Source: Deltaproteobacteria bacterium RIFOXYA12_FULL_61_11 (GTDB lineage Bacteria; Bdellovibrionota_F; JAHFAK01; YA12-FULL-61-11). Taken from it: a stretch of 49,635 nucleotides of DNA. Below the pieces are notes generated by a model. That model searched no databases and was not told the DNA's origin. It saw only the letters and a list, made by a program, of their open reading frames with translations. Position numbers and translations under genes: made by a program. Location: the NCBI GenBank assembly GCA_001799195.1, contig MGSU01000091.1:1-49635 (forward strand). The letters run 5' to 3'. Shown in pieces: positions 1-34,275 of this stretch (position 1 is its first letter; each line of letters begins with the position of its first letter).

Positions 1-170
1 AGTCCGAACCGTCATCCCAGTCGCTATCGCCCCAGTCCGAGTCCGAGCCGTCGTCCCAGTCGCTGTCGCCCCAGTCCGAGTCCGAACCGTCGTCCCAGTC
101 GCTGTCGCCCCAGTCCGAGCCGTCGTCCCAGTCGCTGTCGCCCCAGTCCGAACCACCATCATCACCCCAA
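1..170. repeat. 39/33-bp coding minisatellite encoding (WDDGSDSDWGDSD)n
   Basis: The motif 'cccagtcgct' recurs at about 16, 55, 94 and 127 (spacings 39, 39, 33). Confidence 0.8.
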
Positions 171-271
171 TCATCATCGTCCCATTGGGCCGACACAGGG
201 AATGCCGCCAACAGCATCGCGCAAAACAACGCGACACCCCATGACCGTAAGCCACGCCACTGAGCCTTCAT
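1..271 (-). CDS. Secreted Trp/Asp/Gly/Ser-repeat protein, N-terminal part (gene runs off the window start)
   Basis: Minus-strand ATG at 271 gives MKAQWRGLRSWGVALFCAMLLAAFPVSAQWDDDDWGDDGGSDWGDSDWDDGSDWGDSDWDDGSDSDWGDSD..., a signal peptide followed by WDDGSDSDWGDSD repeats. Upstream GGAGG-type RBS (plus strand 'cctcctt'). DNA repeat periods of 39 and 33 bp. Confidence 0.75.
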   Translation of the reverse strand, partial: MKAQWRGLRSWGVALFCAMLLAAFPVSAQWDDDDWGDDGGSDWGDSDWDDGSDWGDSDWDDGSDSDWGDSDWDDGSDSDWGDSDWDDGSD

Positions 272-595
272 CGGTATTTCCTCCTTGGGTTGCACTCGCA
301 CATAACGCGGCTAATTTGCATACAATGAACATACCAGTTAACATGAGAGCCACCAATTTACAATCAAACAAACAGAATTAATTTAAAATAAAAAATTCTG
401 ATTAACATATTTCCGACAAATTTGTAAATCCACCGCCTCTGTACGGTGCCGAAATGGCCACCACCAAACACTCCGATTGCTATCTGCATAAAATACATAC
501 TGTTAGTTCGGTGTCGCCGTGGCTCCAGGCGCAACACCGGAACAGAGAACCTAACTATCACCAGTGGTTGGAGCTTCTGTCCTTGCACCGATTTG

Positions 596-638
596 CGAGA
601 ACATCCCACTACTCTCGCAACGACGAGAGATGTTCTCG
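596..638. other. Composite hairpin in intergenic region
   Basis: cGAGAACAT (596-604) pairs with ATGTTCTCg (630-638); internal CTCTCG (612-617) pairs with CGAGAG (624-629); 7-nt bulge 605-611. Confidence 0.55.
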
Positions 639-818
639 GTCTGCTGAGGGAAGAACCTTCTCGCCGAAAAGTAAAATCTCGATCTTAGTAACGATGAAAC
701 CTAAGGAACGAGCAATCCCGAGAAACCTACAAAGCGGTTCGAGATGCGCGGGGAAGGGAGCAACCGCCGCAATGGCGGGGAGAGGGCCTACGCGGGAGAA
801 GCTACGTCGAGGAAGAAC

Positions 819-1730
819 TCAACCTTGGCGGCGGCGGCGAACGCCGGTCACAACCAAACCGACCGCGAGCAGACCAAACAGCAAGCCGGCAACCGCCGCC
901 TGGCTCTCGCTGCCGACCGTGGTCGCACACGTTCCGCGAGAACGCACCACGTAGTTGCAGCGATTGTAACGGCAATAGACCCGTGGGTCCCCGTGCCAAG
1001 CCCTGCACTCGCTCGGGTGCCATGCACACCATGTGTAATAGATCCGGTCGGAATAGCACCAACCGTAACCCCAGTTGTAGGGCGACCATACACACGTGGT
1101 AGTGAGGTACCCATATGGCCACACCGTCATCATTTCCCACGGATAATAGTGGTAGATCGAATACCAGCTATAGTCATAGTAGTCGTACCAGTAATAAGGG
1201 TCTGACCAATAATCATAGCCATAGTATTCGTTGTACCAGGTGTCGCCGTAGTCCCAGTCACTGTCGTACCAATAATCGTCATCCCAGTCCGAATAGAATT
1301 CGCCGGTCTCGCTGTTCCAGTCGTCATCACTCCAACCATCGTCGTAATCACTGTCGCCCCAGTCAGAGTCGCCGCCGTCATCCCAGTCGCCGTCGCCCCA
1401 ATCGGAGTCACCACCATCATCACCCCAATCGGAGTCGCCGCCATCATCCCAGCCGCCGTCACCCCAATCCGAGTCACCACTATCGCCCCAATCGGAGTCG
1501 CCCCAATCATCCCCGTCGCCCCAATCAGAGCCGCCGTCATCCCAGCCGCCATCGCCCCAGTCGGAGCCACCGTCGTCCCAGCCGCTATCGCCCCAATCAT
1601 CCCCGTCGCCCCAATCGGAGCCACCATCGTCCCAGCCGCCGTCGCCCCAATCATCCTGAGCCAAGGCCGAGCCGCCAAACACCAGGGCAAGGCTTGCCAC
1701 CATCATCAACCACGATTGACGCCAACCCAT
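819..1730 (-). CDS. Secreted Trp/Asp/Gly repeat protein with Tyr/Trp/Cys-rich domain and C-terminal TM plus Arg tail
   Basis: 303-aa ORF: signal peptide MGWRQSWLMMVASLALVFGGSALAQ, (WDDGGSDWGDG)-type repeats, aromatic-rich middle, C-terminal AAVAGLLFGLLAVGLVVTGVRRRRQG. Confidence 0.8.
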   Translation of the reverse strand: MGWRQSWLMMVASLALVFGGSALAQDDWGDGGWDDGGSDWGDGDDWGDSGWDDGGSDWGDGGWDDGGSDWGDGDDWGDSDWGDSGDSDWGDGGWDDGGDSDWGDDGGDSDWGDGDWDDGGDSDWGDSDYDDGWSDDDWNSETGEFYSDWDDDYWYDSDWDYGDTWYNEYYGYDYWSDPYYWYDYYDYSWYSIYHYYPWEMMTVWPYGYLTTTCVWSPYNWGYGWCYSDRIYYTWCAWHPSECRAWHGDPRVYCRYNRCNYVVRSRGTCATTVGSESQAAVAGLLFGLLAVGLVVTGVRRRRQG

Positions 1731-2010
1731 ACATCCTCCTTCCTTCGTTATCGTCGTAGTTCGACGTTACCTTCACACTGCGTGGCCCACTATCAAATTG
1801 CGAGCCAGTTAATAAACAACACCCGCGATATCTTTCAAAGAACCAATATCACTACATTTATTTTTATCATCTACACTAACTGCCGCTCTATCGATATCAT
1901 CGCCGTCAACATTCGGCGCCATTCCGACACCACCAGCGCCCAAGGCCACGTACTTTCAGCAGGATGCGGCCGCCGCATGGTTGCATCTCGACACCAATCA
2001 GGGATAGGTG

Positions 2011-2139: not shown

Positions 2140-2895
2140 TCAGAAGTTCGCGGTGATCTTGCCGTCCGGGGTGAACATCTCCTGCATGCGCAGCTCGGGC
2201 ATCGCTTGCTCGGGGATGTTGTGCTGATCCCGAATGAAGCTCCTGAGCTTGTTGTAACCGAGGGTGATGGCACCCAGGCGGAAATGCAGGTCTTCAAGCG
2301 CGGTTTTGCTCGGCTTGAGCGAAATCATGGTCATCTCGTTGCGCGGGATGTTTTCGAAATCGAATTTGTCCTGGTCCTTGGCCCTGAGGATGAAGCGAGC
2401 CACTTCGGCCCTGCGGGTGAAGTCGAACAGGAAGTTGTCGTAGTAGAAAGGTCCATTGTGCTTTTGCACGGCTTCCTTCAAATTGGGCTTACCCGAAGGA
2501 GAGACCCCCGAGGTCTGCTTGGCCCGCTGCCACTGGATATTGCCCTGGCTGTAGCCCACCACGACCAACCCGCAGTACATACCGATCTTTCCGCGCTGTT
2601 CGGGAGTGTGCGCTCCGAATTTCTCTTTCATGGCCGTAGCGCACCGCATGAAGAGTTTCTCGTAGGTGTCACAGATGACCTCGTGGGCCTGGGTCCCGAA
2701 TTGGCTCCCGGCGCCGAGATAAACATCCGCCTCTTCGACCAACCTGACACACGTGCCGTTCTGGGAGGAATTAGTAAAACTCCCCGCCATGTCCCGTAGG
2801 TCGAGATCACTCTCGTCCAAGCCAAAGCCTCCGCTCGCGCTCGCCGTGCCAAAGGTCAAGGCCAAGCCCAACAATGCGATGATCATACGTTTCAT
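2140..2895 (-). CDS. Secreted protein of unknown function
   Basis: ORF 2140..2913; likely start MKRMIIALLGLALTFGTASA (signal peptide) at 2895. Confidence 0.7.
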   Translation of the reverse strand: MKRMIIALLGLALTFGTASASGGFGLDESDLDLRDMAGSFTNSSQNGTCVRLVEEADVYLGAGSQFGTQAHEVICDTYEKLFMRCATAMKEKFGAHTPEQRGKIGMYCGLVVVGYSQGNIQWQRAKQTSGVSPSGKPNLKEAVQKHNGPFYYDNFLFDFTRRAEVARFILRAKDQDKFDFENIPRNEMTMISLKPSKTALEDLHFRLGAITLGYNKLRSFIRDQHNIPEQAMPELRMQEMFTPDGKITANF

Positions 2896-9020: not shown

Positions 9021-10442
9021 TCAATACCATGTCGTGGGAGAAAAGTAAAGACCTCGCGAAGGAATCTCCCCTGTGGACTGCTCTCGTCTGAGTTGCCAAC
9101 AAAACAACGACAGTTCTGCTAATTCTCTGAAATACTGACAGGTATCAGAGTCCTTACCCCCCCGTACGCCGCAACGTACCCGATTGACGAAACGGCAGCC
9201 ACCCCAACACAATGACTTGATCCAACAATTCTTACAGACTGCCGAACGCGCGTTACTCACAAGCGTTGTCCGTCCCTCATGCGTGGGTTGCCATCCGCTC
9301 CGCACCGAGCCTAGGTTCAGTTCGACCTGCTCAGTGAATCGATGGCATGGAAACAGGTCCCCTTCGCTTCCTATCGCTAGGTATCCTCTCCCTGCCGAAC
9401 AAAAATCAGGTAGTGTTTCTGCCGTATCCAGTCGCTCGATAAAAGTCCCCAAATTGCCGATATTCCAGGGCTCGATTCCTCCGAACGCTGATGGCCCCTG
9501 TACGAGCATGCTCCTAAGCTGCCGGACGAGTTCGCTCAGTACTGCCGAATATCTGGCTCCAGGACACGCGGGACTGAAGGTCGCTCTTCGAACTCCACAC
9601 CCATACAACCAGGTGAGAGACGCCCCCAGGTCGAAATGATCCTCCACCAAGGTACTGCGCACCAAGACCCGTTCGGGTCCAAGCGCGGAGAGCAGCAGCG
9701 CCAATCCTCTCGTGGTTTCCTCGCTGCTCCCGCGCCCTTGGGCAGGCCAGCGTCGATGCCGATCGTGAATCTCGGGCAGACAATCGAGACTAACGGTGAC
9801 TCTGAGGTCGAGTGCCGCCAGCCTCGCGGCGATCTCGACATCGACCAGCGTGGCATTGGTGGTCAAGGCCCAGTGCACCTCCTGATCGGCCATCCCCTCT
9901 ATCAGACGTTCCATACCTGCAAGGTTGAGGAGTGGTTCTCCGCCGAACAGAGAGATCGTGGCTCCCGGCTGTAATATCGGACGCCCCTTCGGGTCCCGTC
10001 CGCGCAACCACTGCACCACAGAATCCACCGTGTCCAACGGCATCAATCCACGCGCTCTGCCATAACTTCCTTGCTGTGCATAGCAGTATGAACAGCGCAA
10101 GTTACAATCCCGAGCCAGAATTACCGCTACCGCAGACAAACCGGCTTCTCGACTCGGCCGCGGAGCATTGCCTGAGAGGAGTTGATCAAGCAAGGCTCCC
10201 TGCGAATCGTTGCCGACCGTGTTCATGTCCAACCGGGAGGTGCCACGCCCGAGTTCTTTACAATCCCGAGCAGTAGATTCATCGAGTTCATAGAGTTCCA
10301 GCGTCCTTGTGGCGAACAAGAAACTGCGCCCCCTGACGGAAAAGAGGTGGAACAGTTGTCCTCTCCACGTGGAGGTGCCCGTCTTTCCCTCGGTTCTCAC
10401 GCTCTTCCTTGCCGAGCACAACTCATCGCGAGGTTTCGCCAC
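9021..10442 (-). CDS. Radical SAM/SPASM peptide maturase
   Basis: CNLRCSYC (CxxxCxxC), SLFGGEPLL, SPASM-type Cys cluster FCSAGRGYLAIGSEGDLFPCHRF...CKNCWIKSLCWGGC...C. Confidence 0.88.
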   Translation of the reverse strand: MAKPRDELCSARKSVRTEGKTGTSTWRGQLFHLFSVRGRSFLFATRTLELYELDESTARDCKELGRGTSRLDMNTVGNDSQGALLDQLLSGNAPRPSREAGLSAVAVILARDCNLRCSYCYAQQGSYGRARGLMPLDTVDSVVQWLRGRDPKGRPILQPGATISLFGGEPLLNLAGMERLIEGMADQEVHWALTTNATLVDVEIAARLAALDLRVTVSLDCLPEIHDRHRRWPAQGRGSSEETTRGLALLLSALGPERVLVRSTLVEDHFDLGASLTWLYGCGVRRATFSPACPGARYSAVLSELVRQLRSMLVQGPSAFGGIEPWNIGNLGTFIERLDTAETLPDFCSAGRGYLAIGSEGDLFPCHRFTEQVELNLGSVRSGWQPTHEGRTTLVSNARSAVCKNCWIKSLCWGGCRFVNRVRCGVRGGKDSDTCQYFRELAELSLFCWQLRREQSTGEIPSRGLYFSPTTWY

Positions 10443-28162: not shown

Positions 28163-29044
28163 TCAACGCGTACTGCGCGTCCGGAACAACAGCAGACCAA
28201 GGAGTAGGGTGATCCATCCCGACAGGAAGAACTCGGATCTGCCCGGCAACATCGCACATAGTCCACCCTCGGGTCTCGAAGCATCCTGGGGTTCGGGGTT
28301 GTGTTGGAGGGTTGGATCCTCGGAGAGAATACTAACCTCCTCTATATAAGGACTCGCGCTGTCGACTTCGAGACAGTGAATGGTCTGACCATAAAATGGA
28401 TACCACCGTTCTTCCTGGAGTGGAGCTTCCACTTGCTCCGGGAAGAGGTCCCCCGTGAACACGGTGTGCGTTTCAACGATCTGCCGCTCACTATCATAAA
28501 TGACGAAAACATCACCGTATTCCATGGTCCGCCACTCGATTTGACCTGCTCGGGGATCATAGACTCCCATCACGTCTCCGTGGAACTGGGTGCGCCACAC
28601 CACTTCGTTGGTCAGTGGATCGAGGACTCCATAGACACCTCCTGCCCACCGTTCGTGCCACACCATCTCACCGAAAGCTTCGACATAGAGCCCGAACACA
28701 CCACCATGCCAAGAAGTCTTCCATTCGACCTTCTTTACCGAGGGATTGTAGACCCCGTGAACCCCGGATTCCCAGGCTGCTCTCCACTCAACAGCTTCTT
28801 CAGCCGGATTGTACACACCGAAGACCCCGCCTCCCCATTGACCGCGCCATTCGACCCGCTGGAAGGCAGGATTATACACCCCATGCACGCTCCCAGCGTT
28901 CTTCAGGCGCCATTCGGTGATCCCCGTAGCCGGATTATGCACCCCGAAAACACTGCCACGGGGGTTGTTTTTGCATACAACACGGGCCTCGAGCTCGGCC
29001 CCCAGGGAACTGATGATAAGGAGTACAAGCAGGGGCCGTACCAT
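28163..29044 (-). CDS. Secreted/anchored protein with eight 21-aa repeats
   Basis: Repeats such as GSVHGVYNPAFQRVEWRGQWG, GGVFGVYNPAEEAVEWRAAWE, SGVHGVYNPSVKKVEWKTSWH; C-terminal Cys, TM and Arg tail. Confidence 0.75.
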   Translation of the reverse strand: MVRPLLVLLIISSLGAELEARVVCKNNPRGSVFGVHNPATGITEWRLKNAGSVHGVYNPAFQRVEWRGQWGGGVFGVYNPAEEAVEWRAAWESGVHGVYNPSVKKVEWKTSWHGGVFGLYVEAFGEMVWHERWAGGVYGVLDPLTNEVVWRTQFHGDVMGVYDPRAGQIEWRTMEYGDVFVIYDSERQIVETHTVFTGDLFPEQVEAPLQEERWYPFYGQTIHCLEVDSASPYIEEVSILSEDPTLQHNPEPQDASRPEGGLCAMLPGRSEFFLSGWITLLLGLLLFRTRSTR

Positions 29045-31520: not shown

Positions 31521-32003
31521 ATGAAAGATGGGAAATACTGTCTCCTTGCTATTGACGATGAACCCATCATCCTCGATCAGATCAAAAACGTCTTCAACGA
31601 CCTCTACTGTGTGTACACCACCGAAGATCCAGAAACAGCGCTTTCTCTGATCCGCGAAGGCATTGTCGACCTCGTCATCTGCGATCAACGCATGCCGAAG
31701 ATCAAGGGGGTCGAGCTGCTCGCTCAAATCAAACAACTCGATGAAGATGTCGTTCGCATCCTGCACACCGGTTATGCCGACCTCAACGTAGCCATTGATG
31801 CCGTCAATATCGGTTCTATCCACCGTTACGAATCAAAACCGGTCAATGTCAAGAACCTGCGACAGGTTATCAAGAACGAACTCGAGAAAGCGCAACACAG
31901 CAAGGATGCAAAAGAGAAGGCAGCTCAAATGGAGAATATGGAAACGATGCTCGACGAGATCGAATCCATTTTCGTCGACCCGGAGGAGAAATCAAAAGGA
32001 TGA
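31521..32003 (+). CDS. Response regulator receiver protein
   Basis: LLAIDDEPIILDQI, DLVICDQRMPKIKGVELLAQI, KPV; directly downstream of the kinase. Confidence 0.85.
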   Translation: MKDGKYCLLAIDDEPIILDQIKNVFNDLYCVYTTEDPETALSLIREGIVDLVICDQRMPKIKGVELLAQIKQLDEDVVRILHTGYADLNVAIDAVNIGSIHRYESKPVNVKNLRQVIKNELEKAQHSKDAKEKAAQMENMETMLDEIESIFVDPEEKSKG

Positions 32004-32100
32004 GTTGACCTTTCCCCCCAGCAACCCTAGGTACCCCAGGAGCTTCTTTTCGGCTCGAATATTGCAAATACATTATACGCCAACGAACGAGGGCGTGATC

Positions 32101-34275
32101 ATGATGCGACGTAGGTCTTTGTTCTTCATTCTCTTCATTGCTTCATGCGAGATACTGGCCATGGCTGCACCAGCCACCCTCGATATCCCCAATCGTGCCC
32201 AAGTCTTCGTGAATACAGAGGCAATCAATGCTACCCTGCAACATCAATTGGTCGGAACCCCGCTGATCTTCGATCGCAAGACGGCTGGGACATACTGGTC
32301 GCATTTCGATGAAGCACTTACCCTAGATAATTCCACTTGCGATCAGCTAGAACTGGACCCATTTGCCCTTGAACTCGAACTCTCTGAGCTTACTCTAACC
32401 CAGATCCCCCATGAATCCGCTTTCAAGATCACCCTCGATATCGCTCGGATCGCTGCCTTGGGCCATCTCGTGGTTTCTGGTTGTCTTCCCTTCACCCTTG
32501 ACGACGATTTCACCGCCTCTATTGAGAACACCTCGGTCATCGCCGCAGTGTCACCCCAAATCCTCGATGGCACACTAACCATGAAGTTGGTGGGGAAACC
32601 CTCGATCAAGCTGGGGAAGATCAAGGTCGATTTCGACAAGGTGTGGAACGGACTGGAAGCTGTGTTGAATACCGTAATTTCCCTGCTTTCCCGCTCAGTT
32701 CTTCATGTGATCGAAGGTCGTCTTGTGCTAAAAGTTGCCGAATCCCTAGTTGGTATCTCCCTCCCCGTCGCTACCCACCTTGAAGACAAAAATCCATTTG
32801 GATTCGGCGAAGGGGGGGTAGCCTACACCTTCGACGCTTCGATCGATGCGATCCGCCCGTTGAATACTGGGATTGCGGTTGACGCTGATTTTCTGGTCAG
32901 TCTGGACCTTGCGCCGAGCGATTGCGCAATCGACCCGTCGGTCCCTCCCCGCCATAACAAGAGCAACTTCCCGACGAGAGCCTCGATCGATAACGCCAGC
33001 AGTCATCTCGCCCTTTCCATCCCCGATGGGCTTGTCAACGATGTACTCTACGAGTTCTGGCGCTCTGGACAACTCTGTATCACCAAGACCAAGGTGGACC
33101 CGATCTTCCAAAGCCACCTCAACGTGATCTTGCGAGATCTTGCAGACCTCTTGAAGATCAACCTCGTGCTATACTCCCCTCCTTTGCTCCGCTTCGGCAC
33201 CTCCAAGTACGATGGCATTGTCATCGAGTTGCGCGAGGTTGATTTGGTACTCGATTTCCAACCCGCCCTGACAGAACGTGAACTCTATGAACTCGGTATT
33301 AAACGGCTCCGACTGAAAGGAGATTTCGATCTCTACACCTCCCTGCGCATCGATAAGGCCCATAATGTGTTAAAAGTGGCCGTTGATCACGTAGAGGTCG
33401 TCGAATTGACCCTCGAGCACAATGGAGAACAGCTTACCGGCTCAAGCGGCTTTTCACCGTCCGAACTTACCGACTATCTCATCCATCACATTCTACCCAT
33501 GATCGGAGAGAAAATCGCAGAGGCTCCTCTCTTCCCTCCCACAATCTTCCCTGTAACCGACGGTTTTTTCCTCGCTCTCGACGAGGTCGTGCCGCGCGGC
33601 TCATACCTCAATGTCTTCCTTTCCTTGCTTTGGGCAGGTGATCCGGCCGTAGACAATTTCGCACCGAACACCGAGATTCTCGGTTTCGTGGACGATTTTG
33701 GGTTGTCCTGTATCGACCTCGATCCCTCTTTCTCGTCCTCGACCCAAGAAGATGCACCGGTTTTTATCGACGGAGAAGCCGAGCCTCAGACAGCAACGGT
33801 ACAACCCTCGAACATCCCTCCTGCAGCTCGTCACCTATGTACCTCATCGATACGCTTCGAGGTTGCAGGCAGCGATGAACGAAACTCTCCGCTGTTATAC
33901 GAATATCTCGTCCTCCAATGCTCTCGCTCCGGGCAATCACCTTCCGAAGACGTACTGACCGTGGACTGTACCCGTACTATCGACCTCGAAGACCTCAAGA
34001 ACAGTGGGGATCTGAGCTGGCAAACCTCTGCCGAACAGGAAATCATGCTTTCCTCGCTCTCGCCCGGAGAGGACTACCTCTTCTTGGTTCGCGCAAAAGA
34101 CAGCAATCACAATGTCGACGAAACCCCTTCCAGCGTGATGTTCAGCATGGATGAGGCTCAGAGTTCTGGATGTTCGATGCATCCCATTCCAGGATCCTCA
34201 GGCCGGAGCACTGCACTTCTCGGCTTCATCCTCGTTGTATGGTATATCTGGAGACGAGTTCGTCAAAGAGCCTGA
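32101..34275 (+). CDS. Large secreted protein with Cys-TM-Arg C-terminal tail
   Basis: Start reset to MMRRRSLFFILFIASCEILAMAAP; fibronectin-like segment near the C-terminus; tail SSGCSMHPIPGSSGRSTALLGFILVVWYIWRRVRQRA. Confidence 0.7.
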   Translation: MMRRRSLFFILFIASCEILAMAAPATLDIPNRAQVFVNTEAINATLQHQLVGTPLIFDRKTAGTYWSHFDEALTLDNSTCDQLELDPFALELELSELTLTQIPHESAFKITLDIARIAALGHLVVSGCLPFTLDDDFTASIENTSVIAAVSPQILDGTLTMKLVGKPSIKLGKIKVDFDKVWNGLEAVLNTVISLLSRSVLHVIEGRLVLKVAESLVGISLPVATHLEDKNPFGFGEGGVAYTFDASIDAIRPLNTGIAVDADFLVSLDLAPSDCAIDPSVPPRHNKSNFPTRASIDNASSHLALSIPDGLVNDVLYEFWRSGQLCITKTKVDPIFQSHLNVILRDLADLLKINLVLYSPPLLRFGTSKYDGIVIELREVDLVLDFQPALTERELYELGIKRLRLKGDFDLYTSLRIDKAHNVLKVAVDHVEVVELTLEHNGEQLTGSSGFSPSELTDYLIHHILPMIGEKIAEAPLFPPTIFPVTDGFFLALDEVVPRGSYLNVFLSLLWAGDPAVDNFAPNTEILGFVDDFGLSCIDLDPSFSSSTQEDAPVFIDGEAEPQTATVQPSNIPPAARHLCTSSIRFEVAGSDERNSPLLYEYLVLQCSRSGQSPSEDVLTVDCTRTIDLEDLKNSGDLSWQTSAEQEIMLSSLSPGEDYLFLVRAKDSNHNVDETPSSVMFSMDEAQSSGCSMHPIPGSSGRSTALLGFILVVWYIWRRVRQRA

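Follow-up and report, generated by a model that had tools for sequence, protein, structure and literature searches.

Acidic-aromatic repeat proteins with a probable C-terminal sorting tag in Deltaproteobacteria bacterium RIFOXYA12_FULL_61_11

Introduction

MYXO-CTERM proteins of Myxococcota (TIGR03901, such as TraA) have an N-terminal signal peptide and a short C-terminal signature composed of an invariant Cys, a single transmembrane (TM) helix and an Arg-rich end, and one such tag is found on many unrelated proteins of a genome in which type II secretion system (T2SS) genes are also present. In Myxococcus xanthus, these proteins are cleaved by the CPBP protease MrtX, surface anchoring follows, and their display is thought to run via the T2SS (PMC11980579). 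A related model, archaeomyxosortase MrtA (NF040590), describes archaeal enzymes. With regard to repeat composition, RTX proteins are extracellular and rich in Asp and Gly, which form Ca2+-binding nonapeptides, and in CsgF, another surface protein, aromatic residues spaced along a disordered region act as stickers (PMC10133297).

Here we analyze a family of acidic, aromatic-rich repeat proteins that resembles each of these systems in some respects. The window examined is the entire contig C91 (49,635 nucleotides) of an assembly of 4.64 Mb in 342 contigs, which is about 87% complete. A preliminary description of this DNA had reported two tandem secreted proteins at its beginning; both genes are real and lie on the minus strand, but only one of them (copy A) is whole and the other (copy B) is truncated.

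Results

Organization of the repeat proteins

Copy A (819..1730, minus strand) is a complete gene encoding 303 aa, as judged from its ORF, signal peptide, ribosome-binding site (a GGAGG Shine-Dalgarno sequence at 1735..1739) and purifying selection. Its product consists of a signal peptide (residues 1-24, 1659..1730; assigned by eye, with an inferred cleavage between ALA and QDD), acidic Trp repeats recognized by composition and spacing (residues 25-140, 1311..1658), a Tyr/Trp-dense region with six conserved Cys defined by alignment with a paralog (residues 141-266, 933..1310), and a C-terminal part with Thr-Cys, a TM helix and RRRR (residues 267-303, 822..932), all on the minus strand. This anatomy is the one previously described, and residue counting reproduced exactly the 35 Trp, 30 Tyr and 7 Cys that had been counted by hand; six of the Cys lie in the Tyr/Trp domain and the seventh in the C-terminal part. 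The mature protein contains 25% Asp, 18% Gly, 14% Trp and 12% Tyr and has a net charge of about -59, and residues 26-140 (115 aa) comprise 47 Asp, 35 Gly, 18 Trp and 13 Ser. Within the repeats, aromatic residues are 4 to 9 residues apart and never neighbours, a regularity reached by none of 20000 composition-preserving shuffles. Together with Trp and Tyr contents far above those of the 26 other window genes (means of 0.7% and 2.3%, respectively; highest Trp content 2.3%), this spacing bears out the view that such acidic and aromatic repetition is unusual. A small secreted protein for which a family search gave no match is encoded directly upstream of copy A (2140-2895, minus strand).

Copy B is represented by its 5' part (2..271, minus strand; ATG at 271), which is preceded by the Shine-Dalgarno sequence AGGAGG (280..285) and encodes a signal peptide (residues 1-28, 188..271; by eye, with an inferred cleavage between VSA and QWD) and about 60 aa of repeats. 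It is truncated because base 1 of the window is the end of the contig, which falls inside a repeat; a search across the assembly did not find the remaining 3' part, as expected where an assembler halts in a repeat. A third, complete paralog of 273 aa, also with a Shine-Dalgarno sequence, is located on contig C320 and shares 68% identity with copy A over the shared part. All seven Cys of copy A (six in the domain and one in the tag) are kept in the C320 paralog, and the number and length of the repeats differ among copies. The small secreted genes that flank the two loci have little in common beyond signal-peptide residues. Elsewhere in the window, we observed transposase-like ORFs at the opposite contig end (47706-49458, minus strand; by eye) and a radical SAM protein that weakly matches a SPASM domain (9021-10442, minus strand).

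Selection on the protein and a shared upstream element

Considering that tandem DNA repeats are present and that open plus-strand ORFs span the region, the repeats might represent low-complexity DNA expanded by slippage without meaning, or the antisense strand might carry the real gene. However, comparison of copy A with the C320 paralog gave a dS of about 1.08 and a dN of about 0.16 (Fisher p = 6e-11), and two internal repeats differ from each other at 8 of about 13 synonymous sites versus 3 of about 62 nonsynonymous sites (p = 1e-5). Few nonsynonymous and near-saturated synonymous changes, both in the core shared by the paralogs and between repeats within the gene, imply that the protein sequence has long been kept by selection. 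Moreover, it is the minus strand that bears Shine-Dalgarno sequences and signal peptides, and the paralogs keep an upstream element. Slippage or a gene on the antisense strand is thus extremely improbable, and the plus-strand ORFs across the region of copies A and B are best read as antisense shadows.

The upstream element, TTAACTGGTA-N4-CATTGTATG, precedes the start codons of copy B (319..341, minus strand) and of the C320 paralog by about 46-70 bases; the full element is common to these two only and was found nowhere else in the genome at up to three mismatches. Its first part, TTAACTGG, which is half of the element, also precedes copy A by about 75 bases (1805..1812, minus strand) and occurs in the window only there and upstream of copy B. 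Since at least two matches to TTAACTGG were obtained in 14 of 100 shuffles, the number of occurrences is weak evidence by itself, and the weight lies with their positions. Scans for sigma-70 promoters and terminators gave no excess over shuffles. The element has outlasted the synonymous sites, which suggests that it may have a regulatory function.

A C-terminal tag shared by unrelated proteins

The C-terminal TM helix with an Arg tail noted in the preliminary description is present in copy A, but what had been overlooked is that, together with the adjacent Cys, it corresponds to a tag found across the genome. Copy A ends in AVAGLLFGLLAVGLVVTGVRRRRQG, i.e., a TM helix followed by Arg, and the modelled helices cover residues 3-19, within the N-terminal signal peptide, and 274-302. 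Against the NCBIfam model TIGR03901 (cut-off 20), copy A scored 22.0 bits in the genome search and 17.6 bits in the whole-protein scan, and the C320 paralog 18.9 bits in the genome search. The tag motif is RGTC in copy A and RGSC in the C320 paralog, its Cys being one of three invariant alignment columns. When nine C-termini were combined in a tag profile, it matched about a dozen ORFs in the genome, mostly unrelated proteins, that end in Cys, TM helix and Arg; this count was obtained by searches only and includes the nine seeds (or halves of them). Subtilase-like and Cys-rich proteins (by eye) are among the tag bearers, and the best match of the profile in one genome of the same class (G001) had an E value of 0.09. 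A tail common to many unrelated proteins is the mark of a sorting system, and the C-terminus of copy A is probably a MYXO-CTERM-like tag (Gly-x-Cys, TM helix and Arg) that would lead to anchoring at the outer surface.

Two of the tagged ORFs unrelated to copy A are located in the window. One (28163..29044, minus strand) encodes a secreted protein of 293 aa with repeats of about 20 residues (GVFGVYNPA..VEWR) and the tag GGLCAMLPGRSEFFLSGWITLLLGLLLFRTRSTR, for which no significant family match was found. The other (31795..34275, plus strand), whose true start is uncertain, could encode as many as 826 aa, with the tag SSGCSMHPIPGSSGRSTALLGFILVVWYIWRRVRQRA at the end, and has no Pfam or NCBIfam match.

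Some tagged ORFs on other contigs also contain acidic-aromatic stretches. The mature part of a tagged ORF of 890 aa on contig C68 starts with QWDDDDDWGDDDSDFGDGEFDDDWGDG (with QWDDDDDWGDD at its N-terminus) and has some of the Trp replaced by Phe, the spacing being similar, and tagged ORFs on contigs C297 and C2 include stretches such as YWYEDDYEEYDFYDNDPLYYDDDFYYYDD and WDFYYDDEYREFYDEDGYEEFYGEEEEEEWD. The feature retained in these stretches is the recurrence of aromatic residues at short intervals within an acidic linker, a pattern that would satisfy the requirement for a sticker-and-spacer arm. As in CsgF, aromatic residues are spaced along a region that may be disordered, whereas there is no sequence relation to CsgF and the aromatic and acidic contents are far higher here. 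In the C68 ORF (L050, 157-2829, plus strand), a single frame encodes two successive units, both of them secreted and tagged: the first comprises a signal peptide, the WDDDDDWGDD stretch, Gly-Tyr repeats and a tag with an Arg end, and the second, which follows with no intervening stop, has its own signal peptide, additional Gly-Tyr repeats and its own tag. The product resembles a polyprotein that joins two sorted surface proteins. A second such arrangement (unit, tag GCGMVGKTEPANAGAFLFWVMIGLLFGLQRRRR, in-frame signal sequence, unit, tag) was observed on contig C141 (L044, 67-1659, minus strand).

Candidate sorting and secretion machinery

No match to the myxosortase MrtX (NF040593) was found at E <= 1 in this genome, of which 87% is covered. 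There are four CPBP matches, one of which, on contig C97 (L036, 1084-1800, plus strand), aligns with the MrtA model over 167 of its 194 positions, with a score (47.6 bits) far below the family cut-off of 200. Its gene adjoins a thioredoxin-like lipoprotein gene and, on the opposite strand, a second CPBP gene. The MrtA-like match is missing in G001, a genome without tags, and the C97 protein is the best candidate for the sorting enzyme. For type II secretion, GspD was detected at 482 bits (cut-off 351), and a GspC_delta gene (187 bits, cut-off 150) is separated from the C320 paralog by a single small gene.

The proteins described here are therefore similar to MYXO-CTERM proteins in their signal peptide, their short C-terminal signature with an invariant Cys, a single TM helix and an Arg-rich end, the presence of one tag on many unrelated proteins of the genome, and the presence of T2SS genes. 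They differ in that the tag is mostly Gly-x-Cys-(Gly/Ala) rather than Gly-Cys-Gly-Cys, in that scores fall on both sides of the family cut-off, and in that an MrtA-like CPBP protein is found instead of a recognizable MrtX. Since MrtX was searched for and not found, copy A may work like a MYXO-CTERM protein but is not a proven member of that family.

Search for relatives and structure prediction

Comparison of the repeat and Cys regions with Pfam, PHROGs, NCBIfam and PDB identified no relative and matched no characterized repeat family; Pfam gave no match at E <= 10 and PDB two chance matches only (E of 8.5-8.7). Relatives of the family were found in 0 of 97 other genomes by protein search and 0 of 385 other genomes by profile search, and none were found in viral contigs, in plasmids or in the GTDB species genomes, the last of these scanned with short conserved peptides, which reach close relatives only. 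Tyr-rich matches of 15 residues in Lachnospiraceae from the GTDB species genomes were rejected as composition, and the matches of a DNA pattern for three WGD motifs in other genomes look like unrelated G-rich or simple repeats. The repeat family is an orphan within the databases and genomes covered. Structure prediction, which had been proposed in the preliminary description, was carried out in two AlphaFold runs and yielded no usable model (pLDDT of 39.8 and 35.2) and no order in the repeats. Such low confidence with a two-sequence alignment is consistent with disordered repeats but is no proof of them and, with only two sequences aligned, says nothing firm about the Cys domain.

Discussion

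Based on these features, a pathway may be proposed for copy A, copy B and the C320 paralog. The Sec signal peptide would be cleaved just before Gln (ALA/QDD in copy A and VSA/QWDDDD in copy B), and by homology the Gly-x-Cys, TM helix and Arg tail would retain the protein in the inner membrane, where the tag Cys would probably be lipidated and a myxosortase-like CPBP protease, for which the MrtA-like C97 protein is the best candidate, would remove the TM helix. Export by the T2SS would then bring the protein to the outside of the outer membrane, to which it would be attached by its lipid. We consider cleavage, sorting and surface anchoring of the three proteins likely, and surface anchoring of the tagged repeat proteins appears to be a well-supported inference. 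What the anchored proteins would do there is more tentative. A C-terminal anchor implies that the six-Cys Tyr/Trp domain lies near the membrane, where it might serve as a disulfide-stabilized base, and that the acidic arm is outermost. This distal Asp/Gly/Ser arm, with Trp every 5-9 residues, might be disordered and act as a brush of stickers and spacers, touching matrix polysaccharide, neighbouring cells or its own kind weakly at many points and so giving a coat that is adhesive or cohesive through multivalency. Of the functions considered, this is the one that we favour, at less than even odds; adhesion is a guess in keeping with the sequence, and the strongly negative arm could equally repel surfaces. 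For the account as a whole, in which these are sorted, surface-anchored acidic-aromatic coat proteins, we see about even chances.

Two other functions rank close behind an adhesive coat. With Asp at about a quarter of the mature protein, a net charge near -59 and recurring DGxD-like clusters, the proteins may instead be surface-anchored polyanions that bind Ca2+ or other metals (as a charge brush, in metal sequestration or in mineral templating), with Trp and Tyr packed round the acidic sites; the surface location would be the same as for the coat. However, GGxGxD of RTX nonapeptides (GGxGxDxUx, HemolysinCabind) and the DxDxDG loop of EF-hand, dockerin and thrombospondin-3 proteins are absent from every copy, again with no Pfam match at E <= 10. 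Although the repeats are extracellular and rich in Asp and Gly as in RTX proteins, their spacing is irregular and a C-terminal membrane tag takes the place of a type I secretion signal, and a Trp every 5-9 residues, maintained by purifying selection, would be superfluous for the mere binding of metal or charge, which makes metal binding rather unlikely. The six-Cys Tyr/Trp domain might also be the working part, binding a glycan, a protein or a partner surface, with the acidic repeats only solubilizing or spacing it, considering that no other part is as well conserved as this domain (copy A and the C320 paralog are 75-81% identical in it and keep all six Cys) and that repeat number and length vary between copies. 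Such a role is unlikely, since the C-terminal anchor would place the domain by the membrane and the repeats outermost, the reverse of the usual stalk-and-tip adhesin, and neither a relative nor a usable fold was found for it. A redox-active or electron-conducting surface protein working through Trp/Tyr chains and Cys, a role that the preliminary description had rightly marked as speculation, along with adhesion and metal binding, would be in keeping with the high Trp, Tyr and Cys content but found no support: the haem motif CxxCH is absent, no redox genes neighbour the locus in the window, the even number of Cys in the domain is as expected for disulfides, and long Gly/Asp linkers would not fix aromatic residues in contact. 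We regard this role as very improbable.

Returning to the coat of sorted, anchored proteins, a broader and speculative scenario, which we would put as possible but doubtful, is that a lineage-specific myxosortase variant, comprising the Gly-x-Cys tag and the MrtA-like protease, builds the coat from several proteins of the sticker-and-spacer type, of which some would be synthesized as polyproteins of two units, with an internal tag leading directly into a second signal peptide. If the proposed account of these proteins holds, sorting by C-terminal tags would extend to a sparsely sampled lineage in which another enzyme is the candidate, and a natural extracellular material of extreme Trp, Tyr and Asp content would be added to those described. 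As the repeat family is an orphan, its function would be new knowledge.
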